Positions 29,838-49,516 of a stretch of DNA of 64,000 bases are shown here, piece by piece; within the stretch, counting starts at the first letter, position 1, and every line of letters begins with the position of its first letter. Source of the stretch: Nonlabens spongiae (GTDB lineage: Bacteria > Bacteroidota > Bacteroidia > Flavobacteriales > Flavobacteriaceae); contig NZ_CP019344.1 of NCBI RefSeq assembly GCF_002117125.1, forward strand, positions 1,178,001 through 1,242,000, given 5' to 3'. The notes under the pieces were generated by a model. The model saw nothing but the letters and a program-made list of their open reading frames with translations, was not told the origin of the DNA and made no database searches. A program made the position numbers and the translations under genes.

Positions 29838-30665
29838 CTAGGAAACCAGCCCCACGAGATTAGGCAGCTTAACCAGCTGATTTGTGGTGATGTGGGTGTA
29901 GATGAGTGTAGTCTTGATATCATTATGACCCAGCAGCTGTTGAATCGTCTTTATATTAACCCCTTCATCTAACAAATGAGTGGCATGAGAATGGCGCAGG
30001 GAGTGTAGTGTCACGTTTTTATAAATACCGGCCCGCTGCGTCGCCTTCTTAAAGACAGCTCGCAGGCTGGAGGCTGAGTATTGTTCTTGCTGGGCGTTCT
30101 CAATGAGATACGTCTTAGGCAGAAACTTCTTGTAATAAGTCCTTAAAAAGATCTTGAGATCATGGGGCAGCGGCAGTATGCGGTCCTTTTTACCTTTTGA
30201 GCAAAGGATCTTTACCTGATCGCGCTTGCCATCTATATGTTCTATTTTAAGGTTAAGCAACTCACCAGATCGCAGTCCCAGTGCATATATAGTGAGTATC
30301 GCGGTGCGGTGCTTCTCATTTGTGATGGCGGCGAGTATATCTTTAACCTCTTCAATACTGAGTATGTCTGGCAACACCTTTTGAGGCCTGCGTGGCGCGA
30401 CTGTGGTGAGGTCCAGCTCACGATTATGGACTAGAGACAGGTAAAGTCTTAGAGCGCTTGCGAGCTGCTTCTGGGTGGTATAGGCGAGATTTTGTGATAG
30501 GTTTTTCTCAACAAATTTTTTACGCAAGAAACTGGATTCTGCCTGATGGATGGGAATGAGATCTCCTATAAAATTTTGGAAAGCGATCAGTAAACCCGTA
30601 TAGGTTTTTATCGTGTTAGGACTATATCTTTTGATTTTGAGCAGGGTGGTAAAATCGTCAAACAT
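29838..30665 (-). CDS. Tyrosine recombinase, candidate cassette integrase
   Basis: 275 aa from the ATG at 30665; an upstream TTG would add eight residues. An N-terminal SAM-like core-binding domain (about 1-90) precedes the catalytic domain. The catalytic set is complete: R132 (GLRSGELL), K157 (CSKGKKDR), H221 and R224 (HSLRH), H247 (LLGHND) and Y256 (LIYTH). The stretch between KKDRILPL and HSLRH is short, with no room for the extra segment that defines IntI integrases. It therefore looks XerC/D-like, yet sits divergently at the head of an attC-like array as intI does. A host-derived or phage-type recombinase that is unrelated to the array is the alternative. Confidence 0.85.
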   Translation of the reverse strand: MFDDFTTLLKIKRYSPNTIKTYTGLLIAFQNFIGDLIPIHQAESSFLRKKFVEKNLSQNLAYTTQKQLASALRLYLSLVHNRELDLTTVAPRRPQKVLPDILSIEEVKDILAAITNEKHRTAILTIYALGLRSGELLNLKIEHIDGKRDQVKILCSKGKKDRILPLPHDLKIFLRTYYKKFLPKTYLIENAQQEQYSASSLRAVFKKATQRAGIYKNVTLHSLRHSHATHLLDEGVNIKTIQQLLGHNDIKTTLIYTHITTNQLVKLPNLVGLVS

Positions 30666-30785
30666 GCTTATATACCATTTATACCGCAATATAGATATTT
30701 GCTTAAAAACTTGCGGATATACCGCTAGAATGAGGTGTATATATGGTAGTTTTTGATATATTGCGGATATACACTAGTTGTCGGT
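30666..30785. promoter_or_regulatory. attI-like segment between recombinase and first cassette
   Basis: Two direct repeats, TTGCGGATATACcgCTAG starting at 30711 and TTGCGGATATACaCTAG at 30761, lie 50 bp apart, and an inverted partner ATTGCGGTATA occupies 30680-30690. The second repeat runs directly into the first cassette core (CTAG/TTGTCGG, G at 30777). Such repeats next to the crossover resemble integrase-binding sites of attI. Binding is inferred. Confidence 0.6.
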
Positions 30786-31153
30786 GATTGCCCAAGGGAC
30801 ATGTTGCTCCGCCATGAAATCATCCATCCGAGACAAAGGTCCCCACAATCCAACGAGCGGTGGCACAACCAATAACCAGATGTGCATCAACCAATTTCAA
30901 GGCTCCCACAACATTCAATCACCGACAACGCCCACCGCGTGAAAATGCCCAATAAACAAACCAGCCACCTGGGGAAAACCATACCGGTGAGCGCACCACC
31001 GACAACAGGGCATAAAGCGAATGTGGCATTTTCAAAAGCTCTCTGTGTGGCGGCCAGAATCCAAAACTATTGCCTACTTTTAGAGGCAACAAACCAATAC
31101 CACCGATAACGCGAACCAGCCGAAAACGCCACACTCGCTTTATGCGGTGGGCG
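30778..31153 (+). repeat. Gene-less cassette, copy 1 (variant A)
   Basis: 376 bp. It starts TTGTCGGTGATTG, whose complement CAATCACCGACAAC recurs at 30916-30929; CACCGACAAC appears again at 30997-31006. An outer arm CAACGCCCACCGC (30926-30938) pairs perfectly with 31144-31156, and an inner arm at 31010-31033 pairs with 31122-31145 (22 of 24). Open frames on either strand run through these arms and show no domain. GC content is visibly higher than in the protein cassettes. Looks identical to copy 4 by eye. Confidence 0.85.
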
Positions 31154-31156
31154 TTG
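31003..31156. other. attC-like site of gene-less cassette copy 1
   Basis: Core CAAC at 31003-31006, 24-nt arms GCATAAAGCGA.../...TCGCTTTATGC, core GTTG at 31153-31156; 154 bp. The same site recurs at 34280-34433, 37700-37853 and 42550-42703 in the other copies. Confidence 0.7.
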
Positions 31157-31194
31157 TGTGTCATATTGAAAAAAAACGAAAATCGAATTTAACA

Positions 31195-32391
31195 ATGTTT
31201 AATTGGTTCAAAAAGAAAGAAAAAATAGAAAATCCGATTGAAATTTCAGTTAGCGGAATTAATCCTCAAACCGATAATGAATTTCTATTTTACAACTTTG
31301 TGCAATTGACTTTTGCACCTCATTTGCAAAAATGGTATGAGAAAGCAAAGGAAAACGGACTTCAATTTAAACCGCAATACGAACAAGCAATAAAACAAAA
31401 AGTAAGTACAGGTAAATTTGAGAATCCACACAAATTTCCTTCATATTTTACAAATGGATTCGATTTTATTGGAATACAGTTTTTAAGTGGAACAGATGAT
31501 ATTTTAAGTGCATTTGAATTAGGCACTCACTTCATAATCGATGAAAAAATAGCATACAAAGAAAAATTTCTTTTTCGTCCACCTAATCAAATTTTAAAAC
31601 AAAAAGAATTTAAAGAAACTCTCGAAATGTTTGATATAGACGAAGAATTTGTAAAAGATTTTTCATTTGAGGATGTTTGGGACACGTTAGATTTAAAGTT
31701 AAGTTTCAATCATAGTTTAGTTGTCTGTTGGAACAAAGAGATTGAAATTCTTGAAGAAATATTAAAAGCCTATAGAATAAAAGATTACAACATAAATTAT
31801 ATACAAATAAGAGAAATAGCTAAAGACAATAATCTTCCAGATTTATTTGATAATCTTTTAAAGCATTTCAATTCTGACCTGAATATTGAAAATGATTTAT
31901 CTCTTATAGCACCAACTCTTGCGTTGGAATTTGAAGATATGGGAATCAATCTAAATAACTACAGAAAAAACCTAAATCCAAAATCTAGCGAAAATTTCAA
32001 CGAATTAAATCCTAAACCTTTAAAAAAGCATAAAACAAAGCCAACTACTTTAGACATTCAAAACGAAAACCTATCTCACATTCGTAATTACTCTATTGAC
32101 CCGAAAGAGATTAGTAAAATTGATATTAAAAACAAAGGATTTATTTTTACTGGAGAAATAACTACAGACAGAGATACAGCAAAAGAATTCATAGAACAAA
32201 ATGGTGGAATAATAAAATCTGGAATTACAAGCAAAGTCGATTATGTTATTATCGGAGCTGACTTTGGTTGGTCGAAAATCCAAAAAATACACGAACTGAA
32301 CGAAAATAAAAATTGTAACATAAAAATATTAACCAATTCGGATTTTGAAAATCTGAAAAAAAATACGCCACACAACAATGGCTATAAGTAA
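31195..32391 (+). CDS. BRCT-domain cassette protein
   Basis: 398 aa from the ATG at 31195; an upstream GTG lies inside the recombination site and is rejected. Residues of about 320-395 form a BRCT domain (KGFIFTGEI, AKEFIEQNGGIIKSGITSKVDYVIIGADFGWSKI), close to the DNA-ligase/RFC type that binds DNA ends or nicks. The N-terminal 300 residues, rich in Lys, Asn and aromatic residues, are not recognised. Sole gene of cassette 2; a DNA-related role is inferred from BRCT only. Confidence 0.75.
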   Translation: MFNWFKKKEKIENPIEISVSGINPQTDNEFLFYNFVQLTFAPHLQKWYEKAKENGLQFKPQYEQAIKQKVSTGKFENPHKFPSYFTNGFDFIGIQFLSGTDDILSAFELGTHFIIDEKIAYKEKFLFRPPNQILKQKEFKETLEMFDIDEEFVKDFSFEDVWDTLDLKLSFNHSLVVCWNKEIEILEEILKAYRIKDYNINYIQIREIAKDNNLPDLFDNLLKHFNSDLNIENDLSLIAPTLALEFEDMGINLNNYRKNLNPKSSENFNELNPKPLKKHKTKPTTLDIQNENLSHIRNYSIDPKEISKIDIKNKGFIFTGEITTDRDTAKEFIEQNGGIIKSGITSKVDYVIIGADFGWSKIQKIHELNENKNCNIKILTNSDFENLKKNTPHNNGYK

Positions 32392-32497
32392 TTGCTTGTT
32401 CTCGCCTACTTCTGAAAATCCTCGCGGATTTTCAGTTTGGTGTGTACTTGCAAAGTTAACCGCAAAACCACGCAACTACTCATAGCCGAGACCGTTG
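32373..32497. other. attC-like site, cassette 2 (family beta)
   Basis: 125 bp: CAAC, arm GGCTATAAGTAATTGC, central region, arm GCAACTACTCATAGCC, GTTG. The cassette's start GTTGTGTG pairs with CACACAAC here. Confidence 0.75.
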
Positions 32498-32530
32498 TGG
32501 TGCATTTAAAAAAAAATCGAATAAGATAAA

Positions 32531-32632
32531 ATGGCTTTTTTAGGATTTATATTTGTTTTATTGCCAATTTCAATAATCTTATTTCTATTATGGGTTTTCA
32601 CTAAGAAAAAATATTCGGAATTGGACTTTTAA
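32531..32632 (+). CDS. Small single-TM peptide
   Basis: 33 aa starting MAFLGFIFVLLPISIILFLLW, one membrane segment followed by a basic tail (KKKYSELDF). It stops 2 nt before the next ATG, which suggests a two-gene transcript or a split protein. No family recognised. Confidence 0.4.
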   Translation: MAFLGFIFVLLPISIILFLLWVFTKKKYSELDF

Positions 32633-32634
32633 TA

Positions 32635-33054
32635 ATGTGGGGCGGATTAATATCGCTTTTACTTTTATCATTTATCCTGAGACCACTTTGGGAAAAAAAG
32701 ATTTTAGAGAAATCTGATTTTTATGGAGAATATATAATTGACAGAAATTATTTTTCGGGAAAACAAGCGGATTGGCAATACAATCATTTTCGATTTGAAA
32801 TTAAAGAAAATGATTCAATATATTTTTACGTAACTGATGGAGAAATAATAAACAAAACTTATAAAGGAAAAATATCAACTCTTACACCATACAAATCAGC
32901 AAGACTTGTAATTGAAATGGAAAAACCTACTCATCACATATTTACAACTAATCCAACTATTTATCGTGAAGTTTGGGACTTTTTTATGGTGTTTAATTCA
33001 CCAAGATTTCATAATATGTATTTCCGAAAAGGAGAATGGAAAAAAATTGAATAG
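32635..33054 (+). CDS. Cassette membrane protein, hypothetical
   Basis: 139 aa. One N-terminal TM segment (GGLISLLLLSFILRPLW), then a soluble beta-rich domain with EYIIDRNYFSGKQADWQYNHFRFEIKE near 30-58. Possibly a periplasmic or cytosolic lipocalin-like strand set, but no family is recognised. Second gene of cassette 3. Confidence 0.55.
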   Translation: MWGGLISLLLLSFILRPLWEKKILEKSDFYGEYIIDRNYFSGKQADWQYNHFRFEIKENDSIYFYVTDGEIINKTYKGKISTLTPYKSARLVIEMEKPTHHIFTTNPTIYREVWDFFMVFNSPRFHNMYFRKGEWKKIE

Positions 33055-33085
33055 AAGAATAAAACGAAAATAAAAAACGACACCA

Positions 33086-33210
33086 CAACAATGGCTATAA
33101 GTAATTGCTTGTTCTCGCCTACTTCTGAAAATCCTCGCGGATTTTCAGTTTGGTGTGTACTTGCAAAATTAAGTGCTAAACCACGCAACTACTCATAGCC
33201 AAGGCCGTTG
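33086..33210. other. attC-like site, cassette 3 (family beta)
   Basis: 125 bp, nearly identical to the cassette 2 site. CACCACAAC at 33081-33089 is complementary to the cassette start GTTGTGGTG at 32494-32502. Confidence 0.75.
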
Positions 33211-33225
33211 TACAACATACCCGAA

Positions 33226-33684
33226 ATGAACAAACTGCTGACAATTTCACTACTGATTTTCTTATTTCTGTCCTGTAAAAACGACAAGAAATCTGAATTG
33301 GAATTTTATGCAGAAAATCAAACTTCATTTTTCGATTTGAGAAATGGAGACTGGACAAAAAACTCGTGGATTAGAAAACCTGAAAATCTAAAAATGGTTC
33401 ACGAATCGTTTAAAAATTTTGGGTATGGAAAACTTGAGAATCTGATTTCAAAAAGCAAAAGTCATTTCCTAATCGAAGGAATTTATATAAAACGGAATTT
33501 CGAGAATTTAATAGACAGTTTGGAATTGACCTATAACAAACCTGAAATACAAACAAAATATTACGCTGAATTTTGGAATCGCAGAAAAGCGGAGAAAAAT
33601 GATTCAATAATTTATGAAATCATTCGAGAATTCAACTCAATGAAAATGAACAAAAACAACAGAATAATGAAAACCAATTTGTAA
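33226..33684 (+). CDS. Cassette lipoprotein, probably frameshifted
   Basis: 152 aa from the ATG at 33226. Signal peptide with lipobox LFLSC (Cys near residue 17), then a Lys/Glu-rich soluble region. The last 15 residues look out of frame: one missing base in AATG near 33639 would continue the protein into the adjacent frame ending at 33920. No family recognised. Confidence 0.55.
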   Translation: MNKLLTISLLIFLFLSCKNDKKSELEFYAENQTSFFDLRNGDWTKNSWIRKPENLKMVHESFKNFGYGKLENLISKSKSHFLIEGIYIKRNFENLIDSLELTYNKPEIQTKYYAEFWNRRKAEKNDSIIYEIIREFNSMKMNKNNRIMKTNL

Positions 33685-33920
33685 ATGACACATTATTTGA
33701 CCTTTTAAAAATTGAGTTTGATATCGACAATTTGAATTCTGAAAAAGCAAAATCAAACTTTTATAAATTAAAAAAATACGGACTTCATCAATCTGCTCAC
33801 AACTTGCTTTATGAACGAGCAGAATATTCCCAATTGGATCTAAACCGAAAAAAATTAAACCAAGAATTAACAGAAACAACGGAATTTGAACAACCCTGGC
33901 TTATTGATAATGAAAAATAA
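33618..33920 (+). pseudogene. Downstream frame of the cassette 4 lipoprotein
   Basis: Frame 0 is open from 33618 and gives a hydrophilic linker (NENEQKQQNNENQF), then DTLFDLLKIEFDIDNLNSEKAKSNF-type sequence to the stop at 33920. It lacks a sensible start and continues the preceding frame after a -1 shift. The full product would be about 230 aa. Confidence 0.55.
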
Positions 33921-33931
33921 AGTACGTTGTA

Positions 33932-34057
33932 CAACACCGTATAACAACAATTGCGGCTTTGTGTCCTGCGGACACAACCGCGCAGGCATAAAAGTCGGGA
34001 ATTTTAGCTATCTTAGTTCTCAAACAATCCGCAACTGATTGTTATACAAGACCGTTG
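33932..34057. other. attC-like site, cassette 4 (family alpha)
   Basis: 126 bp: CAAC, arm TATAACAACAATTGCGG, arm CCGCAACTGATTGTTATA, GTTG. Cassette start GTTGTAC pairs with GTACAAC at 33929-33935. Confidence 0.75.
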
Positions 34058-34430
34058 TCGGTGATTGCCCAAGGGACATGTTGCTCCGCCATGAAATCAT
34101 CCATCCGAGACAAAAGTCCCCACAATCCACCGAGCGGTGGCACAACCAAGAACCAGATGACCATCAACCAATTTCAAGGCTCCCACAACATTCAATCACC
34201 GACAACGCCCACCGCGTGAAAATGCCCAATAAACAAACCAGCCACCTGGGGAAAACCATACCGGTGAGCGCACCACCGACAACAAGGCATAAAGCGAATG
34301 TGGCATTTTCAAAAGCTCTCTGTGTGGCGGCCAGAATCCAAAACTATTGCCTACTTTTAGAGGCAACAAACCGATTCCACCGATAACGCGAACCAGCCGA
34401 AAACGCCACACTCGCTTTATGCGGTGGGCG
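34055..34430 (+). repeat. Gene-less cassette, copy 2 (variant B)
   Basis: 376 bp, same architecture as copy 1 but with shared substitutions that match copy 3 (e.g. CCACCGAGCGGTGG hairpin, AACAAGGCATAAAG). Confidence 0.85.
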
Positions 34431-34462
34431 TTGTAAACAAGCGCTAACCAAATCCATCTAAA

Positions 34463-36385
34463 ATGAAATTGAATAAAGTAAAACTCAAAAACTTTAGAGG
34501 TTATTCAAAAGAAACGGAAATTCTGATTGAAGATTTAAACGTTCTAATTGGTCGAAATGACGTAGGAAAATCTTCAATTCTAGAGGCCTTAGATATATTC
34601 TTTAATGGTAAACCAGATAAAAATGATTTATCAATTGATCACGATAATTCCCAAGTTGAGATTACTTGTATTTTTAATGATATTCCAGAATCACTAATTT
34701 TAGATGACACCGTAAAGACTTCCCTAAAGGATGAGTTCCTCCTAAACAAAGAAGGAAATCTTGAAATTAAAAAGAAATTTCCCATATCTCGAACAGGAAG
34801 TGTGTCAGAAGAAAGTGTCATTATCTGTGAACATCCAGATAATCCAAAACTTGAAGATTTACTTTCGAAAAAAAGAACAACTTTAAAGTTATTTTTTGAA
34901 GAACTAAAAATTGATGATAAAGGTGTCAATCGAACGAAAAGTAAGGAAATTAGGAAAGCAATAAGACAACATTTTTATGAAGATGAAATTCAAACTGAGA
35001 CCAAGGAAATAAAAATTGACGGAAAACTGGATAACGAAGATAACAAAAAGAAAATATGGACTAACTTAAAAAAATACCTACCATTATTCTCGTTGTTCTT
35101 CGTTGATAAACCTCTAAATGATCAGGATTCTGACATACAAGATCCAATGAAAGAAATTATAAAAGAGGTTTTAAAACGTGACGAAATTCAACCTCTATTG
35201 GATACATTAAAAAATGCTGTTCAGGATGCTTCTACAGCAATGGCAGATGAAACAATTGAAAAATTAAACGAATTAGATTCCGAATTAGCTGAGACTTTAA
35301 AGTCTAACTTTCCAAAAGAACCTACCTGGAACTCAATATTTAAATTAACATTAGAAGATAATCGCGGCGTCCCCCTAAATAAAAGAGGAAGCGGGATGAG
35401 AAGACTAGTCTTATTAAGTTTTTTTAGAGCACAGATTGAGAAAAGAAGAACAGCTAATGCTCCAAATATAATCTATGCTCTAGAGGAACCCGAAACATCT
35501 CAACATCCAGATTTTCAAATTATGATAGTTAATGCATTGAAGGAATTATCAGAAACCGAAAATGCTCAAGTACTTTTCACTACTCATAATTCAAATCTTG
35601 CTAAGGAAATTTCAAAATCATCATTACGATATATTTATAAAGACGAGCAAGGTGAAAATCAGGTTGAAAATGGTACAAATGATGATGGAACTGATAATGA
35701 AAATATAATTGATAGAATTATAGAAACACTTGGAGCACTACCAGACCCAAAAAATAAAGTCCAGTGTTTAATTTTCGTAGAAGGTGAAAATGATATTAAT
35801 GGTTTAATAAATTATAGTAAACTACTTAACGCTCACGATAGTGAAATTCTAAATTTAGAAAACAATGAAAAAATAGCATTTATTCCTACTGGAGGTTCAC
35901 AATTGAAATACTACATTGAAAAAAAGTATCTAGATGGTTTAATTCAAGCTCAAGTTCATATTTACGATTCGGATGTTGCGTATTATATTCAAAGTATAAA
36001 AGACTTAAATGCAGAAGGAAATCCTAATAAAGTCGGATATAACACAAGTAAATTGGAATTAGAAAATTTTCTACATCCAGATGCGATTAATGAATGCTAC
36101 AAAGAATTAAATATTCCAATAGAAATAACGGAAGTATTAGATAGAGAAGATGTTCCGAAAAAAGTTGCAAAGGCTGTACACAATACAAATGGTGATACTG
36201 AATGGGAGAAAATGCATCCTGACAAAGCAAAATTAGCTGAAAAGCAAAAGAAAAAATTATCTAAAGCCAAACGCCAGCTTAATAATTTAGCAATAGAAAA
36301 AATGACAATTGAAAGATTAAAAGAAAGAGACGGTTTCGACGAAATAAAAGATTGGCTAAATAAAATCAAAACATTTTTAAATTAA
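34463..36385 (+). CDS. OLD-family ATP-dependent nuclease (AAA + TOPRIM)
   Basis: 640 aa. N-terminal ATPase with Walker A IGRNDVGKSS at 29-38, a late Walker B (YALEEPETSQHP near 340) and an H-loop (FTTHNSN near 372). A C-terminal TOPRIM domain follows, with LIFVEGENDI near 434-444 and HIYDSDVAYY near 498. This order defines class 1 OLD nucleases, which cut DNA and act in anti-phage defence. The last 60 residues are a basic coiled region. Only gene of cassette 6, starting 32 nt after the core. Confidence 0.85.
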   Translation: MKLNKVKLKNFRGYSKETEILIEDLNVLIGRNDVGKSSILEALDIFFNGKPDKNDLSIDHDNSQVEITCIFNDIPESLILDDTVKTSLKDEFLLNKEGNLEIKKKFPISRTGSVSEESVIICEHPDNPKLEDLLSKKRTTLKLFFEELKIDDKGVNRTKSKEIRKAIRQHFYEDEIQTETKEIKIDGKLDNEDNKKKIWTNLKKYLPLFSLFFVDKPLNDQDSDIQDPMKEIIKEVLKRDEIQPLLDTLKNAVQDASTAMADETIEKLNELDSELAETLKSNFPKEPTWNSIFKLTLEDNRGVPLNKRGSGMRRLVLLSFFRAQIEKRRTANAPNIIYALEEPETSQHPDFQIMIVNALKELSETENAQVLFTTHNSNLAKEISKSSLRYIYKDEQGENQVENGTNDDGTDNENIIDRIIETLGALPDPKNKVQCLIFVEGENDINGLINYSKLLNAHDSEILNLENNEKIAFIPTGGSQLKYYIEKKYLDGLIQAQVHIYDSDVAYYIQSIKDLNAEGNPNKVGYNTSKLELENFLHPDAINECYKELNIPIEITEVLDREDVPKKVAKAVHNTNGDTEWEKMHPDKAKLAEKQKKKLSKAKRQLNNLAIEKMTIERLKERDGFDEIKDWLNKIKTFLN

Positions 36386-36405
36386 ATTCAATAAACGCCA
36401 GTTTA

Positions 36406-36531
36406 CAACACCGTATAACAACAATTGCGGCTTTGTGTTCTACGGACACAACCGCACAAGCATAAAAGTCGGTAATTTTAGCTATCTTAGTTTTTAAACA
36501 ATCCGCAACTGATTGTTATACAAGACCGTTG
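36406..36531. other. attC-like site, cassette 6 (family alpha)
   Basis: 126 bp, near-identical to the cassette 4 site. GTTTACAAC at 36401-36409 pairs with the cassette start GTTGTAAAC at 34430-34438. Confidence 0.75.
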
Positions 36532-36554
36532 TAAAACATTTAAAACCAAATAAA

Positions 36555-36743
36555 ATGCAAAAAGTAATCACAGTAACGACACATACAAATATCATCGATA
36601 AAGATGATAAATTCACCGAAAAAGAATATACTAAACTAAATGAATATTTAGAAGACGGATATGAGGTTAAGCAAGTAGTACCTGTAGTCACTAATTCAGA
36701 TTCAAGTTATATGTATTCAATTACATTCGTATTAGAAAAGTAA
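36555..36743 (+). CDS. Small DUF4177-like cassette protein
   Basis: 62 aa from the ATG at 36555; a longer frame would begin inside the recombination site. The pattern VITVTTHTN...KLNEYLEDGYEVKQVVPVV...YSITFVLEK, a strand-helix-strand unit around 'L..GYEV', resembles DUF4177, of unknown role. First gene of cassette 7, 10 nt before a membrane-protein gene. Confidence 0.5.
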   Translation: MQKVITVTTHTNIIDKDDKFTEKEYTKLNEYLEDGYEVKQVVPVVTNSDSSYMYSITFVLEK

Positions 36744-36753
36744 AATTGGAATA

Positions 36754-37341
36754 ATGGAAGTAGTAAATATAATTCTGACAGTTATTTTAGTCGTAGTAAC
36801 TTCGATATACACCTTCATTACATATAAAACTCTTCTTTCTTATAAGAATCCAATTTTGTTCCTACGAACTTCATTGATAGATACTAAACACGAATGGGAT
36901 AAATATTTAATGAGAGATTTAGACCCAGTACAGGAGCAAATTCGTGGACTTTCCAAAATTACAATTGACAAAAAAATTAAATTTAAACTTGTAAATAACG
37001 GAACAAGTCCAGCATATGATATAGTGATGAAATATGAAATTCAGACTTTTAAAAATGATATAACTTTCGGAATTGACGAAGCCGACGTGAAAGACTACAA
37101 AGCTGTTCAATATAAGAAATCAATAAGAGAGGTAAATTTCAACTATTTAGCACCTAAAGAAGAAATTGATATAGATATTGTTTTTACATCTAACTTTCCT
37201 AAAATCGAAATAATTGTAACCGAGTTAAAATCTAAAGAAGTTTCAAGTATAAAAAAACCGACAACAATTTTTGTGTATAACAATAATGAACATTGTGAAA
37301 TTGGAGATTCAATTGACTACAGAAATATGGTTGGAGTATAA
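36754..37341 (+). CDS. Cassette protein with N-terminal TM anchor
   Basis: 195 aa. One TM segment (IILTVILVVVTSIYTFIT near 5-22), then a soluble beta-rich domain containing IKFKLVNNGTSPAYDIVMKYEI, which looks like an immunoglobulin-like or CARDB-type fold ('NNGTSPAYD'). No named family assigned. It ends 5 nt before the end complement of the cassette. Confidence 0.5.
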   Translation: MEVVNIILTVILVVVTSIYTFITYKTLLSYKNPILFLRTSLIDTKHEWDKYLMRDLDPVQEQIRGLSKITIDKKIKFKLVNNGTSPAYDIVMKYEIQTFKNDITFGIDEADVKDYKAVQYKKSIREVNFNYLAPKEEIDIDIVFTSNFPKIEIIVTELKSKEVSSIKKPTTIFVYNNNEHCEIGDSIDYRNMVGV

Positions 37342-37351
37342 AAACGTTTTA

Positions 37352-38377: not shown

Positions 38378-38382
38378 TCGAG

Positions 38383-42327: not shown

Positions 42328-42700
42328 TCGGTGATTGCCCAAGGGACATGTTGCTCCGCCATGAAATCATCCATCCGAGACAAAGGTCCCCACAATCCAA
42401 CGAGCGGTGGCACAACCAATAACCAGATGTGCATCAACCAATTTCAAGGCTCCCACAACATTCAATCACCGACAACGCCCACCGCGTGAAAATGCCCAAT
42501 AAACAAACCAGCCACCTGGGGAAAACCATACCGGTGAGCGCACCACCGACAACAGGGCATAAAGCGAATGTGGCATTTTCAAAAGCTCTCTGTGTGGCGG
42601 CCAGAATCCAAAACTATTGCCTACTTTTAGAGGCAACAAACCAATACCACCGATAACGCGAACCAGCCGAAAACGCCACACTCGCTTTATGCGGTGGGCG
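42325..42700 (+). repeat. Gene-less cassette, copy 4 (variant A)
   Basis: 376 bp; matches copy 1 rather than copies 2 and 3 at every variant position checked. Confidence 0.85.
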
Positions 42701-42749
42701 TTGTGCTTAATGCTGAAAAAAGAACTTTAAGGAACAATTTTGGAAAAAA

Positions 42750-43028
42750 ATGAAAAAATGGATTTTTAAAATATTAGGTTTAGTAATCGGAATTGTTTTG
42801 CTTTTAGGATTCTACAGCAATTCTTCGTCTTTTATTGAAAAACAAGACTGGAAATATGCTGAAGGAACTAATATTGGAGATTGGTTATCAAAAAACTCTT
42901 TTAAAATCAAGGACGGAATAATTGAGACAAGTCAAGGAAAAGCGAAAATTGTCTTCTGCTATGGACAAGAATTGATTATAGAGAATTTAAAAACTAAAGA
43001 AAGAGGATTTTATATAAACAAAAGCTGA
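42750..43028 (+). CDS. Cassette membrane-anchored small protein
   Basis: 92 aa. N-terminal TM segment (IFKILGLVIGIVLLLGFY), then a soluble domain with WKYAEGTNIGDWLSKNSFKIKDG. No family recognised. First gene of cassette 11; the next starts 5 nt after its stop. Confidence 0.55.
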   Translation: MKKWIFKILGLVIGIVLLLGFYSNSSSFIEKQDWKYAEGTNIGDWLSKNSFKIKDGIIETSQGKAKIVFCYGQELIIENLKTKERGFYINKS

Positions 43029-43033
43029 ATTAA

Positions 43034-43330
43034 ATGATTTTACTTTTTATTCTCGGAATTTCTTTAATTCAATTTGGATTGTATTACTTGAATACAAAAT
43101 ACAAAACCAAACTACCGAATTTAATAATTCTATTGACTTTGCTAATCTGCTATTTTTTTGTTTTTCCTAAATTCTTTTACCCAGAACCAAGAACAGACGG
43201 AATTAACTGCGGAATGCCAATTCTCGGAATAACACTCGGATTTTGGATTTTTGGAACAATAGCTGGAATTGCGACACATATAATTTGGACAATAAAAAAT
43301 AAAAAAGCACATAAGCACAACAATGTATAA
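43034..43330 (+). CDS. Cassette three-TM membrane protein
   Basis: 98 aa with hydrophobic segments near 2-20, 28-48 and 66-90; ends in a basic tail (KNKKAHKHNNV) that reads into the recombination site, so the last residues are set by the site itself. Function unknown. Confidence 0.55.
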   Translation: MILLFILGISLIQFGLYYLNTKYKTKLPNLIILLTLLICYFFVFPKFFYPEPRTDGINCGMPILGITLGFWIFGTIAGIATHIIWTIKNKKAHKHNNV

Positions 43331-43444
43331 CCGCAATTACGGCGGATTCGACTACGTCCGAATCCACTCGGAATTGCTAACGCCAGTTCTTAACCGAAAA
43401 TTATTAACTTTAAAACCGTAACTGACGGTTATACGAGACCGTTG
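43318..43444. other. attC-like site, cassette 11 (family delta)
   Basis: 127 bp: arms GTATAACCGCAATTACGG and CCGTAACTGACGGTTATAC between CAAC and GTTG. TAAGCACAAC at 43312-43321 complements the cassette start GTTGTGCTTA at 42700-42709 (10 of 10). Confidence 0.75.
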
Positions 43445-43487
43445 GCAGTAATGTGGAAAAACGAGATAAATTGAAAAAAGTATAAAT

Positions 43488-44213
43488 ATGGACAGAAAAG
43501 AATTTTTAAGAAACACGGCAATTTTAGGTGGAGCGACAATCCTACCAATGAACAACGTTTTTTCACAAAATGTAACGGAAAACGGAATTGACAGATTAGT
43601 GGACAGTAATGGAAATTTCATTCAAAAATCACTTCCATACAATAAAACTTTTTTGGAGCCACATATGGATGAAGAAACCTTACATCTGCACTTTGAATTT
43701 CATCACGGTGGAGCAGTAAAAGGGGCAAACACAGATTTGATTAAAATTAAGGAACATCTAAAATCGGGCGATTTAGACCAAGTGGATTTGTGGACCCGAA
43801 AGTTAGCTTACCACTTTTCAAGCCACGTGCTTCATTCCATCTTTTGGACGAACTTAACGAATAAAAAAACTGAACCCAAAACTGAACTCTTAAAACAGAT
43901 AGAAAAGGATTTCGGTTCATTTGACAAACTGAAAAGCTATATCGGGAAAATATCAAAAACTGTAGAAGGAAGCGGTTGGGGTATTTTGGGTTACCAACCT
44001 TATTCGGATAGCTTGACATTGTTACAATGCGAAAATCATCAAAAATTAACACAATGGGGAGTTGTTCCGATTTTGGTGATTGATGTTTGGGAACACGCCT
44101 ATTATTTGAAATACAAAAATAAAAGAGCCGATTTTGTTGATACAGTTCTTGAAATTATCAATTGGGACAATGTAGCTGACCGATTTATGACAGCAAAACG
44201 ACTGACAAAATAA
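43488..44213 (+). CDS. Fe/Mn superoxide dismutase with export signal
   Basis: 241 aa. The N-terminus (DRKEFLRNTAILGGATILP) looks like a Tat-like or Sec signal, so the enzyme may be periplasmic. The four metal ligands are present: His in LHLHFEFHH (near 64), His in SSHVLHSIFW (near 110), and Asp and His in DVWEHAYY (near 202-206). It converts superoxide to oxygen and peroxide. Only gene of cassette 12. Length is normal for a signal-bearing SOD. Confidence 0.88.
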   Translation: MDRKEFLRNTAILGGATILPMNNVFSQNVTENGIDRLVDSNGNFIQKSLPYNKTFLEPHMDEETLHLHFEFHHGGAVKGANTDLIKIKEHLKSGDLDQVDLWTRKLAYHFSSHVLHSIFWTNLTNKKTEPKTELLKQIEKDFGSFDKLKSYIGKISKTVEGSGWGILGYQPYSDSLTLLQCENHQKLTQWGVVPILVIDVWEHAYYLKYKNKRADFVDTVLEIINWDNVADRFMTAKRLTK

Positions 44214-44223
44214 ACACTACTGC

Positions 44224-44348
44224 CAACAATGGCTATAAGTAATTGCTTGTTCTCGCCTACTTCTGAAAATCCTCACGGATTTTCAGTTTGGTGTGTACTT
44301 GCAAAGTTAAGTGCTAAACCACGCAACTACTCATAGCCGAAACAGTTA
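44224..44348. other. attC-like site, cassette 12 (family beta)
   Basis: 125 bp. TACTGCCAAC at 44218-44227 complements the cassette start GTTGGCAGTA at 43441-43450 (10 of 10). 3' core switches to GTTA. Confidence 0.75.
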
Positions 44349-44388
44349 GCTGCAAGCTGAATAAAAAATAACTCAAAACTTAAACAAA

Positions 44389-44955
44389 ATGGAAAACGAA
44401 CATAACAGTAAAAAGAAATACGGGAAATTTTTTGCAATGATTGCGACTTCAATGATTGCAATGTTTTTTTTAATGTACACTCATTCTTATCAAATAATCG
44501 ACCACTTTTGGTTTAGTGAAACTCGATTATTTATGACCATTATTATGGGTGGCTCAATGATAATCATTATGCTTCTCTATATGCTTAATATGTATAAGAG
44601 TAAAAAAGCTAACACTGCAATATTTGGATTGGGAGCTTTGATGATAATTGGAGCAATTTGGTTGGTAAGGAGTCAGGTAACTGTAACTGATACCGATTAT
44701 ATGGAAGGAATGATTCCACATCATTCAATTGCGATATTGACGAGCGAAAGAGCAAAAATAAAAGACGTTAGAGTTCGAAAACTTGCAGACGACATTATTA
44801 AAGCTCAACGCAAAGAAATTATGGAAATGGAATGGTTGATTAAAGACATTAAAGAGAACGGAATTGTCGAAACTGAGTTAGAGAAAGAAGAGAGACCAGT
44901 TCCAAATTTTAAAGGAAAGTTAGACCAAGAAACAAAAGATATTGAAATTGAATAA
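44389..44955 (+). CDS. DUF305 membrane protein
   Basis: 188 aa. Three TM segments (about 14-32, 44-66 and 76-94), then a DUF305 domain: DYMEGMIPHHSIAILTSERAKIKDVRVRKLADDIIKAQRKEI, a ferritin-like helical family with conserved HH that often accompanies copper or mercury resistance genes. Sole gene of cassette 13. A role in metal handling is inferred from family context. Confidence 0.8.
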   Translation: MENEHNSKKKYGKFFAMIATSMIAMFFLMYTHSYQIIDHFWFSETRLFMTIIMGGSMIIIMLLYMLNMYKSKKANTAIFGLGALMIIGAIWLVRSQVTVTDTDYMEGMIPHHSIAILTSERAKIKDVRVRKLADDIIKAQRKEIMEMEWLIKDIKENGIVETELEKEERPVPNFKGKLDQETKDIEIE

Positions 44956-44968
44956 AAAAGCCAGCAGC

Positions 44969-45093
44969 TAACAATGTATATAAAAAATAGGCGAGATAGT
45001 AATAAACTCAAGGGCTTTGGCTCGTATCAAAGTTTGTGCGTAACTGAAAGGTTGGAGCTTCAAAAACGCCTACTTTTCATATACTAACCGTTA
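44969..45093. other. attC-like site, cassette 13 (family gamma-like)
   Basis: 125 bp: arms GTATATAAAAAATAGGCG and CGCCTACTTTTCATATAC between TAAC and GTTA. GCAGCTAAC at 44964-44972 complements the cassette start GTTAGCTGC at 44345-44353. Confidence 0.75.
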
Positions 45094-45118
45094 GGCACAA
45101 GCTGAACAAAAATCACGA

Positions 45119-46564
45119 ATGAACCAAGAAATTAGAAAATACCTAATAGACCAATGTGTTTTAGGACAACCAATCTACTATGAAGACGTAGCCAAAAAAC
45201 TGAATTTGAATTTAGCACTTGACAAGGACAGAAGTGTTCTCAGCAAAACATTGGGCGAAATTTCAGCTTACGAATACGAAAATGGAAGACCTCTAATTAG
45301 TTCGATAGCGATTTACAAAACTGCAAATGACCACGGCAACGGCTTTTACAATTTGTGTGAAGAACTTGGAATAGGAAAAGCAACCAAATTAAAGAGAGAC
45401 TATTTTGGTTTTACCGCTCTTGAAAACTCAAAAAAGTTTTGGAATAATGAGTTTAACTACCAGCAATTTTATGACTTAAAAACACCAGTTTATAACTCAC
45501 AAGACAACCCTTTTATCAATATTGACGAAATAGAATTTTTCAGAAAATGGGTCAATAAAGTTTATGATAAATCCAACAATGACCATTATTTTGCAAAAGA
45601 ATATCTTTTAGAAACTGTTTGGTCTAAAACCAAATTTTGGTCTGAAGAGATAATTAAAAGACTTGATAATTACGAGACTTCAAATAAAAGAATGTGGAGT
45701 AAACGTGATTGGGAAGATGGAAAAAGAGTTTCAACGTTCAAGCCATACACTTGGGCAAGAATTTTCAAAAAAGGACATAAATCAAAGGACATTTTTTTTA
45801 CTGTTGGTATTGACCCATTGCAACACGCTTTAGTTTATAAATTAGATTATTATCACGAAGGAGATTCAAAATTATCAGTAGAACAAAAAGAATTATGCAA
45901 AAAATACATTCCTGAAAGTTTAAAATGGAACGAGATAAACGAAACGGAACTTAACGAGTGGAATTGGGAAACTCTTATTAAAGAAATGGTAGAATTTATT
46001 TCTTCCAATTCTCACCACTATGACCAAGTCGTTAAAATGGTTTGGGGTAGTGAAGATTTAAACTCTGTTTTTACCAACAACTTGACCTTACGCGATTTTC
46101 CCAATGGCGGATTTTCAGAACTACCAAAATTAAATCCTTCTTTCAAAGGAGCAGATATTGACTTCGATAAAAAAAGGAAAGATGATAAAGAGCTTGGAGA
46201 TTTTGGCGAAGAATTGGTTTTAGATTATGAAAAAAACAAACTCAAAGAAAAAGGACTAAATGACTTCATTGACAAAGTGAAAATCGCTAAAGATGGAGAA
46301 GGATATGATATTCTCTCATTTGATGAAAACGGTAACGAGATTTGCATTGAAGTAAAAACAACAAAAGGTAATGAGAAAACACCGTTTTATTTAAGCCAAA
46401 ATGAAAAGTTATTCTTCGAAAAAAACTTTAATAAGTATATGATATATCGACTATACAATTATGATTTGGATAATAATTATGCGGACTTTTTCATAATCAA
46501 GGATTTCGATAAAGAACTTCTTTTTCAACCAACTGAATTTAAGGTTTACTTGAAAAAACAATAA
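45119..46564 (+). CDS. DUF3883-type nuclease-like cassette protein
   Basis: 481 aa. An N-terminal winged-helix-like part (about 1-60: VLGQPIYYEDVAKKLNLNL...SVLSKTLGEI) and a long unassigned middle precede a C-terminal DUF3883 domain (about 370-480). There GEGYDILSFDENGNEICIEVKTTKG provides a PD-(D/E)XK-like D...E-x-K triad. DUF3883 is common in restriction and defence proteins. Sole gene of cassette 14; probably a DNA-cleaving defence factor. Confidence 0.75.
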   Translation: MNQEIRKYLIDQCVLGQPIYYEDVAKKLNLNLALDKDRSVLSKTLGEISAYEYENGRPLISSIAIYKTANDHGNGFYNLCEELGIGKATKLKRDYFGFTALENSKKFWNNEFNYQQFYDLKTPVYNSQDNPFINIDEIEFFRKWVNKVYDKSNNDHYFAKEYLLETVWSKTKFWSEEIIKRLDNYETSNKRMWSKRDWEDGKRVSTFKPYTWARIFKKGHKSKDIFFTVGIDPLQHALVYKLDYYHEGDSKLSVEQKELCKKYIPESLKWNEINETELNEWNWETLIKEMVEFISSNSHHYDQVVKMVWGSEDLNSVFTNNLTLRDFPNGGFSELPKLNPSFKGADIDFDKKRKDDKELGDFGEELVLDYEKNKLKEKGLNDFIDKVKIAKDGEGYDILSFDENGNEICIEVKTTKGNEKTPFYLSQNEKLFFEKNFNKYMIYRLYNYDLDNNYADFFIIKDFDKELLFQPTEFKVYLKKQ

Positions 46565-46574
46565 AGCCAGTGCC

Positions 46575-46701
46575 TAACATTGTATAAAAATAATAGCGGT
46601 TTAATCGCTTAAACGAAAATGAAATATATAAATCAAGCGACAGTAACAAACCGAAAAGTAAGTGCATAAAAAACCGCTACTATTCTTATACGTTACCGTT
46701 A
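46575..46701. other. attC-like site, cassette 14 (family gamma)
   Basis: 127 bp with the same arms as the cassette 9 site. GTGCCTAAC at 46570-46578 complements the cassette start GTTAGGCAC at 45090-45098; GTTAGGC is the textbook integron core. Confidence 0.8.
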
Positions 46702-46823
46702 CCCACAAGCTGAAAACCAACCGCATATTTTAGCACTTTCGGTTTTTTCCGACACACAAATCCAACGCTTAAAACCAAAAGAGCTAAAATTTTCCCAACG
46801 CCTGAAAATTATGTATTTTAGTA

Positions 46824-46854
46824 TTTGCTTAAATAAGAAATAACCGTAACTTTG
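46824..46854 (+). promoter_or_regulatory. Promoter of the mercury cassette
   Basis: TTTG at 46824-46827, 19 nt, then TAACTTTG at 46847-46854 fits the Bacteroidota promoter and lies just before the regulator start. This cassette thus carries its own promoter. Confidence 0.6.
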
Positions 46855-46858
46855 TTTT

Positions 46859-47233
46859 ATGGAAAATAATTCTTGCATAAGACAACAAGCCGATATTGAA
46901 CAAATAAATCGTTGCAAAGACACAGTTTCGGAATTAATCGAATCGTTCGACTATTTGGCGAACGGACTTTCATTAGTCGGAAATAACGTTCGACTGAAAA
47001 TACTTTACCTACTCTTTCAGGAAAAAAGACTTTGTGTTTGTGATTTAAGCGACATTCTCGGAATGAACATTTCTGCTATTTCTCAACATTTGAGAAAAAT
47101 GAAAGACCGAAACCTATTACAAACAGAAAGAGATGCTCAAACGATTTTTTATTCACTTACGGCTGAATACGAAAAAATGCTAAACCCATTTTTTGAGATA
47201 CTTGATAAAAACAAAATTTTAGAAACGATATGA
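46859..47233 (+). CDS. ArsR-family metal-sensing regulator of mercury genes
   Basis: 124 aa. ArsR/SmtB winged helix at about 35-105 (NNVRLKILYLLFQEKRLCVCDLSDIL, ISAISQHLRKMKDRNLL). CVC near residue 59 and C6 may bind Hg(II) or As(III). It overlaps the MerT-like gene by 4 nt. In Bacteroidota such ArsR proteins replace MerR in mercury operons; this role is inferred from the neighbours. Confidence 0.82.
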   Translation: MENNSCIRQQADIEQINRCKDTVSELIESFDYLANGLSLVGNNVRLKILYLLFQEKRLCVCDLSDILGMNISAISQHLRKMKDRNLLQTERDAQTIFYSLTAEYEKMLNPFFEILDKNKILETI

Positions 47234-47829
47234 AAAGTGAAAACAAATTAATCGGTGCAGGTTTGTTAATGGCAATTACAGCTTCTTTATGTTGTATTAC
47301 ACCAGTTTTGGCTCTTATCGCAGGAACAAGTGGAATTGTTTCAACATTTTCTTGGATAGAACCTTTTAGACCATATTTAATTGGACTGACAATTTTAGTT
47401 CTTGGCTTTGCTTGGTATCAAAAACTTAAACCTCAAAAAGAAATAGACTGTGATTGTGAGACGGACGAAAAACCAAAATTTATTCAATCAAAAAAGTTTT
47501 TAGGTATTGTAACAGTATTTGCAATTGTAATGTTGGCTTTCCCATATTATTCTGGAATTTTTTACCCAAACACAGAAAAACAAATAATTGTAGTTGACAA
47601 ATCGGACATTAAAACAACGGAATTTAAAATCAGCGGAATGACTTGTGCCAGTTGCGAAGAACACGTCAATCACGAAGTAAACAAACTCAACGGAATTGTA
47701 AACTCAAAAGCGTCTTATGAAAATGGAAATGCAATCGTTGAATTTGACAAAACCAAAACCAATGAAACGGAAATTGAGAAAGCAATTAACTCAACAGGTT
47801 ATAAAGTAACCGACAAAAAAGAAAATTAA
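47230..47829 (+). CDS. MerTP mercury transporter with HMA domain
   Basis: 199 aa. A MerT-like N-terminal part with vicinal cysteines in the first TM (ASLCCITPVLALIAG near 18-32) and three TM segments is fused to a heavy-metal-associated domain (GMTCASCEEHVNHEVNKL near 136-153). It takes Hg(II) across the inner membrane. ATGA overlap with the regulator. No mercuric reductase is present in this cassette, so detoxification would need a gene elsewhere. Confidence 0.88.
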   Translation: MKSENKLIGAGLLMAITASLCCITPVLALIAGTSGIVSTFSWIEPFRPYLIGLTILVLGFAWYQKLKPQKEIDCDCETDEKPKFIQSKKFLGIVTVFAIVMLAFPYYSGIFYPNTEKQIIVVDKSDIKTTEFKISGMTCASCEEHVNHEVNKLNGIVNSKASYENGNAIVEFDKTKTNETEIEKAINSTGYKVTDKKEN

Positions 47830-48035
47830 TGGAAACTATATTAAAATCTGAAATAACTTGTCCAAACTGCGGACATAAAAAAGTGGAAGATATGCCAACA
47901 AACGCTTGTCAATTTTTCTACGAATGCGAAAATTGTAAAAAGGTTTTAAAACCAAAAGAGGGAGATTGTTGTGTTTATTGTTCTTATGGAACAGTAGCTT
48001 GTCCACCAATTCAAGAAAATAAAAGTTGTTGTTAA
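47829..48035 (+). CDS. GDCCVxC-domain small cysteine-rich protein
   Basis: 68 aa with CPNCGH, CENCKK, GDCCVYCSYGTVACPPIQ and a terminal CC. The GDCCVxC family accompanies MerTP in Bacteroidota mercury operons and probably binds Hg. It overlaps the MerTP stop by 1 nt. Confidence 0.85.
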   Translation: METILKSEITCPNCGHKKVEDMPTNACQFFYECENCKKVLKPKEGDCCVYCSYGTVACPPIQENKSCC

Positions 48036-48159
48036 AAAGCCAACGCTAAAAGCCATACACATTTGCAATTCGCTTCAGCCGAAACACAAGCCAAAAATTG
48101 CAAAAGAGTATGTCTTTGCCAACGCTGAAAACCAAGCTGAACGGAATAAAGCCAGTGGG

Positions 48160-48284
48160 TAACAACGTATATAAAAAATAGCGGTTTAGGTGCTAAATCG
48201 AAATGAATTTTATAAATTTAAGGTCTGTGTTTAACCGAAAAGTTCGTGCAAAAAATCCGCTACTTTTCATATACAAACCCGTTA
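48160..48284. other. attC-like site, cassette 15 (family gamma)
   Basis: 125 bp: arms GTATATAAAAAATAGCGG and CCGCTACTTTTCATATAC between TAAC and GTTA. GTGGGTAAC at 48155-48163 complements the cassette start GTTACCCAC at 46698-46706. Confidence 0.75.
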
Positions 48285-48305
48285 TGTGCAAGCAAGAAAC
48301 CAACT

Positions 48306-48430
48306 ATGTCAAGAACGAGAAGAAACGAATTTAGAGGAAGCAAATATTGGGTTCTAGCGAATTCGAGAATTATGTATGACTTTAAATTTGACCCAATTAA
48401 AGCATACTTGGAAAGCACCCAAGGAATGAT
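48306..48430 (+). pseudogene. Probable N-terminal part of the cassette 16 protein, out of frame
   Basis: The ATG at 48306 opens MSRTRRNEFRGSKYWV, but the frame turns unlike protein after about 48430. Adding one A in GGAATG near 48427 would lead into DFQQEKELNEKYHAWNKE, which continues in frame with the gene at 48500-49009. The first 40 residues are less certain. Confidence 0.4.
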
Positions 48431-48499
48431 TTTCAACAAGAAAAGGAACTTAACGAAAAATATCACGCTTGGAATAAAGAACACTCGAATAATCCTGAA

Positions 48500-49009
48500 A
48501 TGCCAGACGCATTTGATATTTACGAAATGGAAATTATGAATAGTTCGGAATTTCCGAACATTCTTAACCAATCAATTTATCTGACAATTTACTCAACCTT
48601 TGAAAATGAATTTTTTAAACTTTGTGAATGGTGCCAAAAAGCGGAAAGTTTAAAAATTGGACCTAAAGATATTAATGGACAAGGTTATATTGGTCAATGC
48701 AGAAAATATATAACAAATGTTTTGGACGTGAGCCTAGACAGTTTAAATGACGAATGGACTGAAATTAAAAAATATCAATTGATTAGAAATTCCATAGCGC
48801 ATAACAACGGAATAATAAAATCACCAAAAAATGATATACTTAAATTTATTGAAAGTTCGAACGGGATATCATTTGATACAGAAAAATCACAGGTAAAAAT
48901 GGAATCAATTGACTTTTTAAAAACTTTGATAGACAAACTAACTAATTTTCTATCTGAAACAGCTGAAAGAATAATAGAAGAAAAAATGCCAGCACATAAC
49001 AATGTATAA
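48500..49009 (+). CDS. HEPN-like cassette protein (main part)
   Basis: 169 aa from the first ATG, but this frame is open and protein-like back to about 48390, so the true product is longer. IRNSIAHNNGII near residue 97 gives the R-x4-H motif of HEPN RNases, embedded in helices. The C-terminus (MPAHNNV) is encoded by the recombination site. Probable RNA-cleaving defence or toxin protein. Confidence 0.55.
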   Translation: MPDAFDIYEMEIMNSSEFPNILNQSIYLTIYSTFENEFFKLCEWCQKAESLKIGPKDINGQGYIGQCRKYITNVLDVSLDSLNDEWTEIKKYQLIRNSIAHNNGIIKSPKNDILKFIESSNGISFDTEKSQVKMESIDFLKTLIDKLTNFLSETAERIIEEKMPAHNNV

Positions 49010-49122
49010 CAACAATTACGGCTTTGTGTCCTGCGGACACAACCGCGCAAGCATAAAAGTCGGTAATTTTAGCTATCTTAGTTTTTAATTAATCCGTAAC
49101 TGATTGTTATACAAGACCGTTA
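48997..49122. other. attC-like site, cassette 16 (family alpha)
   Basis: 126 bp: arms GTATAACAACAATTACGG and CCGTAACTGATTGTTATAC between TAAC and GTTA. GCACATAAC at 48992-49000 complements the cassette start GTTATGTGC at 48281-48289. Confidence 0.75.
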
Positions 49123-49516
49123 GCTAAAATACGAAACAAAATCAGAGAGTTTAATTGCAAATTCTGTTTTTGCTCGAGTTTTATTTCAAATCTGAAACTA
49201 AACGTTTAATGGAAAACTCACTCAATTCGCAAAGCAGAAACGGATTAAATTGACTAAAAATCTTTGCGCGGAGAAATTAAAAATTAAAGAAAAAAATTAG
49301 AACTCGATGGACTTAAACTTACTCGGTTCGATAAATTGGAATGGATAAATCTTTGCGGATAAAATTTTCTTAGCACTACTCTATTTTTAAAATCTTTGCG
49401 GAGAAAAAGTAAAATTAAAATTCGTTTTCAAAAAAATATTAAAGTTCGGCTGATTAAAACGCTCAGAAACGATAAAGTGGAATCGACAATCCTTACGCAA
49501 AAGTACTTTAGCTAAC
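49120..49516 (+). other. Orphan last cassette without gene or hairpin
   Basis: Starts with GTTAGCTAAA (G at 49119) and ends with the exact complement TTTAGCTAAC at 49507-49516, but no arms follow. It holds three imperfect direct repeats of AATCTTTGCGGAGAAA (near 49257, 49347 and 49388) and no coding frame. The site was probably lost, and this marks the array end. Confidence 0.6.

Follow-up and report, generated by a model that had tools for sequence, protein, structure and literature searches.

The window analysed here, a stretch of 64,000 nucleotides from Nonlabens spongiae (bases 1178001-1242000 of contig C1, NZ_CP019344.1; the genome comprises 3.39 Mb in two contigs, C1 and C2), contains a tyrosine recombinase gene and, to its right on the opposite strand, 17 gene cassettes (c1-c17) arranged head to tail. 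We interpret this array as a functional integron-like gene-capture platform that is run by the adjoining recombinase on folded bottom-strand sites, and give this interpretation a probability of about 0.88. The anatomy of the array, the conservation of its hairpins, the linkage of recombinase and sites, the presence or absence of a single cassette at attI and the recent sharing of cassettes are all observed in silico. As far as sequence comparisons can tell, the array is best regarded as part of a phylum-wide integron-like system built on a separate recombinase clade, and cassettes may capture genes without a classical integron integrase.

Each unit runs from TT to G and is bounded by G|TT (Table 1). 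The original prediction, a complete tyrosine recombinase divergent from 17 units, is confirmed by the full open reading frame (ORF) and by the 17 mapped boundaries. Its statement that every unit ends in a palindromic site holds for the greater part of the array: 12 of the 17 units possess a site of about 125 nt, the ORF-less units c1, c5, c8 and c10 possess a different, longer hairpin, and the site of c17 is interrupted. Apart from these four ORF-less units and c17, the array consists of tandem cassettes in one orientation with attC-like hairpins that have R and L boxes and favour the bottom strand.

The two ends of a cassette are complementary to each other. In 14 distinct cassettes, 83 of the 84 positions compared between the 5' end and the cassette's own 3' end are complementary, whereas 100,000 re-pairings averaged 32.9, peaked at 67 and never reached 83; each distinct cassette entered this test once, with the duplicate ORF-less units c5, c8 and c10 dropped. 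Between a site and its next neighbour as arranged in the array, matching extends only 0-5 bases past AAC/GTT. Complementary own ends are what one expects of cassettes that form circles and have to fold their site.

The consensus fold of the 12 window sites (alignment A3, bottom strand, folded with RNAalifold) has a 5-bp R stem, an asymmetric loop (5 vs 2 nt) and stems of 10 bp and 8 bp; a bulge of one base is present in some sites. In this alignment 98.2% of cells are paired and 13 of the 23 pairs have changed on both sides; pairing and covariation scores as high were obtained in 0 of 500 shuffles, and slid partners likewise score far lower. The same fold is recovered in 147 distinct sites at homologue loci (derived from the best 150 of 172 family-locus matches), with 94.5% of cells paired and 16 of 23 pairs compensated in an alignment made by fitting to the model. 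Almost without exception, two of the pairs are G-T on the bottom strand (144/147 and 146/147 sites), for which the top strand would give C-A mismatches, and the bottom strand folds better than the top strand in all three sites tested. R1, a covariance model of the cassette site built from the 12 window sites, scores the bottom strand of these same sites with 99.6-123.3 bits and the top strand of ten of them with 22.7-34.2 bits, the other two not being listed at E<=0.1. The longer hairpin of the ORF-less cassette measures about 229 nt (z -5.7, with the fold computed for c5 only).

The recombinase is complete, with 275 aa from an ATG at 30665, near the start of its aligned homologues, or 283 aa from a TTG at 30689, and matches Pfam PF00589. 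Its best NCBIfam model is the XerA-type NF040815 (183.6 bits, under the cut-off of 220), and the curated models of XerC and XerD are likewise not passed (153.2 vs 335.15 and 162.9 vs 329.6 bits). The integron integrase model TIGR02249 aligns in two stretches with 153.4 bits, under its cut-off of 265, and the alignment to IntI4 from the PDB also splits into two pieces. The stretch between the catalytic-lysine motif and HxLRH, originally estimated at about 55 residues and taken as shorter than in XerC/D and devoid of the IntI segment, measures 58-59 residues in 31 of 31 array recombinases, compared with 62-67 in five XerC/D proteins and 100 in nine of ten IntI (the remaining one lacks a motif match). 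A relative from outside the array heads (L255) has 59 residues. In one Bacteroidetes metagenome-assembled genome with R1 sites (L226), the recombinase match covers 642 residues of one open frame, possibly a fusion or an extended protein.

In phylogenetic trees the IntI proteins form one group (support 100/100), and the array heads fall inside a separate group (99/99). A joint clade of IntI and the array recombinases is neither supported nor rejected (p-AU, approximately unbiased test, 0.186). The array recombinases stand apart from the XerC/D and XerA rows in two trees, the split being weakly supported in one. The genome carries a separate XerD that passes the curated cut-off, and a lower-scoring second match probably represents XerC. 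The NCBI name "site-specific tyrosine recombinase/integron integrase" also covers archaeal XerA-type proteins and is uninformative about cassettes.

A true intI elsewhere, considered in the original prediction as the possible agent of recombination, was found neither in this genome nor in a sample of 149 family genomes (nearly one per genus): no match passes the TIGR02249 cut-off in either, and none in the family sample reaches E<=1e-50. The query itself works, because 70 of 247 phylum genomes pass its cut-off. Linkage of the recombinase to arrays is evident from 56 homologue loci. Sixteen of these come from the genus and represent all other genomes with a match among 22 searched (five of them only 35-38% identical); 40 come from the 98 matching family genomes, picked by score order with most matches near a contig start skipped. 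R1 sites are present at 47 of the 56 loci (13/16 genus, 34/40 family), and all 255 sites (E<=1e-4, best strand at each place) are located on a single side of the recombinase, pointing away from it; a match at L053 15838-16027 (E 0.0018) stands outside this count. The recombinase is divergent from the array, as in the window, at 14 of the 47 loci and co-directional with an array downstream of it at 33. Nine loci carry no sites: one of them is a contig of 7 kb, and the other eight run into a contig end <=0.9 kb away on one side, which in six is the side expected for the array (the others being L088 and L090).

Co-occurrence in larger samples points in the same direction. Sites occur in 128 of the 149 family genomes; with a recombinase threshold of E<=1e-60, both are found in 93 genomes, the recombinase only in 5, sites only in 35 and neither in 16 (one-sided Fisher p 3e-5, relatedness uncorrected), and one of the five "recombinase only" genomes (G148) does show sites in a finer search. 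In the phylum, the recombinase is found in 93 of 296 genomes and 63 of 140 genera, and R1 sites in 78 of 247 genomes. Within the latter sample, sites occur in 48 of 80 genomes with and 30 of 167 without the recombinase (odds ratio 6.9, p 7e-11), as against 18 of 71 genomes with and 60 of 176 without IntI. Separated by gene, sites are present in 36/59 genomes with the recombinase alone, 6/50 with IntI alone and 24/117 with neither; 21 of the 247 genomes have both. At 20 IntI loci, 320,858 bases in all, R1 gave no hit with E<=0.1. These loci do hold palindromic sites (24 vs 1 in shuffles, with a home-made palindrome finder too insensitive for counts). Among 80 contigs fetched by recombinase similarity, 14 have R1 sites (E<=0.01), all from records named as Bacteroidota groups, including Winogradskyella ursingii, Algibacter onchidii, Seonamhaeicola aphaedonensis, Flavobacterium aciduliphilum and Algoriphagus ornithinivorans. 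No R1-type site was found at E<=0.01 at the non-Bacteroidota members of the 99/99 group (Sphingobium, Mesorhizobium, Oceanirhabdus and others), which may have arrays with sites of another type. This linkage and the lack of IntI give the proposal, a cassette-capture system of Bacteroidota with a different recombinase, good in silico support; the system reaches further than had been proposed, as it spans several families and classes of the phylum and has two architectures.

The putative attI appears to adjoin the recombinase, as it does in integrons. The candidate consists of two direct repeats followed by ACTA|GTT (Table 1), and TATA..ACTA|GTT-like sites adjoin homologous recombinases too. A crude motif caller, one of whose calls (L118) is visibly wrong, found TATA...A|GTT sites at 34 of 48 recombinase genes, that is, at 10 of 15 divergent loci (window included) and 24 of 33 co-directional loci; in the latter, e.g., L091, L102, L103 and L114, the candidate lies shortly behind the recombinase gene. 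The motif TAnnTTTG is the strict Bacteroidota-type -7 promoter motif. It is present upstream of 7 of the 34 called attI (shuffles 3.3%), the window's own attI being without a strict match.

Contig C2 (13,959 bp) provides insight into the movement of single cassettes. It is 99.85-99.89% identical to the chromosome over two long stretches and repeats it from window position 23922 through attI, where one extra ORF-less cassette is placed exactly at the attI candidate, ahead of c1. This cassette matches c5/c8 at every one of its 376 positions and departs from its neighbour c1 at 8 of 376, and its flanks are identical to the window over 1000 nt before and 560 nt after it. A mixed population in which a single cassette had been inserted at attI, or excised from it, would show such an arrangement.

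For transfer between genomes we considered only matches that break at predicted cassette ends. In W. ursingii and in G122, which its code assigns to a different genus, 902 of the 904 nt of cassette c12 recur without change, flanked on either side by other neighbours (60-nt flanks 32/60 and 29/60 identical in the former, 19/60 and 26/60 in the latter). Cassette c5 recurs unchanged (376/376) in the genome's third array, and in both cassettes the breaks lie at or <=2 nt from the predicted ends. Two other genera share the body of c15 at 99.7-99.8% identity over 1466-1476 nt; its site lies outside the matches, which begin <=3 nt from G|TT and stop <=7 nt from R'' (the copy at L277 reaches near a contig end). 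Array DNA is shared by 116 of 397 family genomes (E<=1e-60), many rows being ordinary homologues of the c15 metal genes that stop short of cassette ends. The breaks and the C2 variant suggest that single cassettes were gained or lost at the predicted crossover.

We propose that the recombinase excises cassettes as circles, which would be inserted at the adjoining attI, with breakage and joining at G|TT presumably carried out by this enzyme. Its substrate at the cassette end would be the attC-like hairpin of the folded bottom strand, i.e., a short R stem (AAC/GTT), an asymmetric loop and then stems of about 10 bp and 8 bp. Candidates for the determinants of strand choice are the conserved G-T pairs and the asymmetric loop, and the array genes would be read from a promoter near attI.

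Alternatively, the same recombinase may act on double-stranded sites, in which case the hairpins would serve another purpose (e.g., transcription ends) and recombination would need no folding. The enzyme is without the IntI-type insert, its best model is XerA, and attI resembles an ordinary double-stranded site; XerA itself acts on double-stranded sites. However, the bases beside GTT vary by cassette yet pair with the cassette's own other end, the stem covaries and contains near-invariant G-T pairs that can be formed by the bottom strand only, and the bottom strand folded better wherever this was computed. We consider an exclusively double-stranded reaction unlikely. That the host XerC/XerD or another recombinase moves the cassettes, with the local recombinase as a passenger, would fit the presence of XerD and a probable XerC in the genome, arrays without a local recombinase, and family genomes with sites only. 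The one-sided orientation of all sites at the homologue loci, candidate attI sites that abut the recombinase gene, and sites that track the recombinase but not IntI in the phylum sample make a passenger role very improbable.

A decayed classical integron, in which IntI was lost and an unrelated recombinase happens to lie nearby (a cluster of attC sites lacking integron-integrases, CALIN), would be conceivable in a phylum where IntI is present elsewhere. It is hardly tenable given the absence of IntI throughout the family sample and of R1 matches (E<=0.1) near 20 IntI genes, and recent identical cassettes as well as the C2 variant speak against decay. Changes of the arrays through nothing other than homologous recombination between repeats or the activity of IS110-type insertion sequence (IS) elements are likewise most unlikely. 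The repeated ORF-less cassette could recombine with itself, and IS110-type elements do sit in sites; but unequal crossing-over between c1 and c5 would carry c2-c4 along, while C2 gained one cassette of the c5/c8 type beside c1. Moreover, the flanks of c12 differ in W. ursingii and G122, and a whole cassette with complementary ends is not moved by simple IS insertion.

Several observations nevertheless weigh against a recombinase-driven platform on folded sites. A weak match at L053 6325-6454 (33.2 bits, E 1.8e-4), the single case of this sort near the threshold among the 56 loci, falls on the side of the recombinase opposite to the other sites and may be a chance match or a stray site. The 35 of 149 family genomes that have sites without a recombinase at E<=1e-60 may reflect the threshold, broken assemblies or orphan arrays, and the 32 of 80 phylum genomes with the recombinase that gave no R1 site may reflect strict filters or other site types. 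Two of this genome's three arrays lack a local recombinase, which leaves room for action in trans or by another enzyme. C2 is a single contig and its arrangement may be an assembly artefact. Copies of c4 at L112, L304 and L305 carry other hairpins than c4 in the window, which simple movement of body plus site does not explain. Finally, the extra domain of IntI is described as necessary for integron-mediated recombination (PMC9668308), so an enzyme without this domain would have to hold folded sites in some other way.

The cassettes and adjoining features of the window are listed in Table 1. The cargo includes defence-like genes: the C-terminal part of the c14 protein matches PDC-S36 and PD-T4-1 of PADLOC, and in c9 a short upstream ORF, in a different frame, accounts for the first part of the restriction-modification profile. 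The four ORF-less units represent one 376-nt cassette in two variants (c1 = c10, c5 = c8) that are 8 differences apart; it has no match in Rfam, and further copies are present on C2 (one) and in array 3 (more).

Table 1. Features of the cassette array in the window (positions in the window; the boundary given for a cassette is the G|TT at its 5' end)
Feature	Position	Strand	G|TT boundary	Site or remark
Tyrosine recombinase	29838..30665	-		
attI candidate: two direct repeats TTGCGGATATAC (30711-30722, 30761-30772), then ACTA|GTT	30711..30779	+	30777	crossover G|TT at 30777
c1: ORF-less cassette, 376 nt, identical to c10	30778..31153	+	30777	long hairpin 30927-31155
c2: BRCT-domain protein	31154..32494	+	31153	site 32373-32497
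c3: small protein, function not assigned	32495..33207	+	32494	site 33086-33210
c4: small protein, function not assigned	33208..34054	+	33207	site 33932-34057
c5: ORF-less cassette, identical to c8, the extra C2 copy and one array-3 copy	34055..34430	+	34054	long hairpin 34204-34432
c6: AriA/OLD/GajA-like AAA ATPase	34431..36528	+	34430	site 36406-36531
c7: two small ORFs	36529..37474	+	36528	site 37352-37477
c8: ORF-less cassette identical to c5	37475..37850	+	37474	long hairpin 37624-37852
c9: helix-turn-helix (HTH) protein and type IIG-like restriction-modification protein	37851..42324	+	37850	site 42202-42327
c10: ORF-less cassette identical to c1	42325..42700	+	42324	long hairpin 42474-42702
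c11: two small ORFs, function not assigned	42701..43441	+	42700	site 43318-43444
c12: Fe/Mn superoxide dismutase	43442..44345	+	43441	site 44224-44348
c13: DUF305 protein	44346..45090	+	44345	site 44969-45093
c14: NOV_C protein	45091..46698	+	45090	site 46575-46701
c15: ArsR regulator, MerT/HMA protein, small Cys-rich protein	46699..48281	+	46698	site 48160-48284
c16: small protein, function not assigned	48282..49119	+	48281	site 48997-49122
c17: last unit, closing at AAC 49514-49516; 3' end TTTAGCTAAC complementary to own 5' end	49120..49516	+	49119	site lost to IS remnant
IS110-type element remnant right after R'' AAC of last site	49517..49747 (end approximate)	-		interrupts c17 site

Two further arrays of the same sites occur in this genome (C1:1067060-1088824 and C1:269240-301822; loci L271-L275), both with their cassettes on the - strand. 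No recombinase matching PF00589 adjoins either of them, and they hold intact IS110-type elements as well as relatives of the ORF-less cassette, c4 and c15. The body of c4 (33208-34054), when compared with L112, L304 and L305, looks as if sites exchange at R''. We do not claim hairpin exchange between cassette bodies as a second activity; several apparent cases (c4/L272, c6/L295 and c15/L277) are IS insertions or a contig end.

The IS110-type elements insert at one point of the cassette site, AAC|AAAGAACTGAG. The 14-mer AACAAAGAACTGAG, in which the start of the element is joined to the R'' AAC, occurs at 17 separate places across the fetched loci, of which 10 belong to this genome, leaving aside the window place that recurs in L055 and L276 and two matches with one mismatch. 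The sequence beyond it was read at 11 places. Element ends follow R'' AAC at L271 (three places), L272, L273, L274, L040, L082, L094, L110, L117 and L295. We rejected AACAAAGAACTGAG as a conserved "array terminator" common to array ends: it marks an insertion and no end element, because adjoining intact copies encode an IS110-type transposase. At L271 two intact transposase genes lie beside it, and the one tested (12813-13784) matches PF02371 and PF01548. IS1111 elements that target integron attC sites are known (PMC11187229, where the IS1111-attC group is credited to Post and Hall 2009 and Tetu and Holmes 2008). The elements described here resemble that group as DEDD (IS110/IS1111-type) elements at one fixed point in a cassette site, but differ in residing in Bacteroidota arrays with non-IntI sites and in their insertion point. 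Low-complexity repeats (TTTTGATTTTGG) were found by a repeat search to the right of the array (window 50893-50980).

With integrons based on IntI the array shares a recombinase beside attI, tandem cassettes of one orientation, hairpin sites with AAC/GTT cores, complementary own ends, the G|TT crossover, accessory and defence-like cargo, the occurrence of some arrays without a local recombinase, and IS110-type elements in the sites. It differs by a separate recombinase clade without the IntI segment (58-59 vs 100 residues) that stays below the TIGR02249 cut-off (153.4 vs 265 bits), by a site consensus of its own that is not matched at the 20 IntI loci, and by a second architecture, present at 33 of the 47 loci with sites, in which recombinase and array run in the same direction. 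XerA, XerC and XerD are similar in size, two-domain fold and overall profile, the archaeal XerA being the best model; the array recombinase, in contrast, is under all three curated cut-offs, stands apart in the trees, sits at cassette arrays and occurs in a genome that has its own XerD and probably XerC. The two other arrays of this genome parallel CALIN as attC-like clusters without an adjoining recombinase, from which the window array is distinguished by its own recombinase and attI candidate. IntegronFinder demands the IntI-specific domain for an integrase call (PMC9668308), and few integrons are reported in Bacteroidetes (PMC9024848). Full-text searches of an open-licence library, which leaves preprints and most subscription papers outside, listed no paper whose title or abstract opening points to a domain-less integron-like system in Bacteroidota.

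If the arrays are active, surveys would have missed a large pool of cassettes, as sites occur in the great majority of the sampled family genomes (128/149). The site model and the recombinase alignment are directly usable for such surveys. We consider it fairly probable that Bacteroidota hold a second integron lineage, in which a domain-less clade recombines folded single-stranded attC-like sites and maintains a phylum-wide cassette pool, in some genomes beside IntI. The recombinase clade of such a lineage would never have had, or would have lost, the IntI domain, and strand choice would be made via the G-T pairs and the asymmetric loop. With this system one can test a long-standing question, namely if the IntI domain is required for folded attC sites to recombine, and by what route Xer-type recombinases gave rise to integron integrases. 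A second lineage would imply either that cassette capture arose twice, or that IntI derives from a domain-less ancestor that is still alive here.

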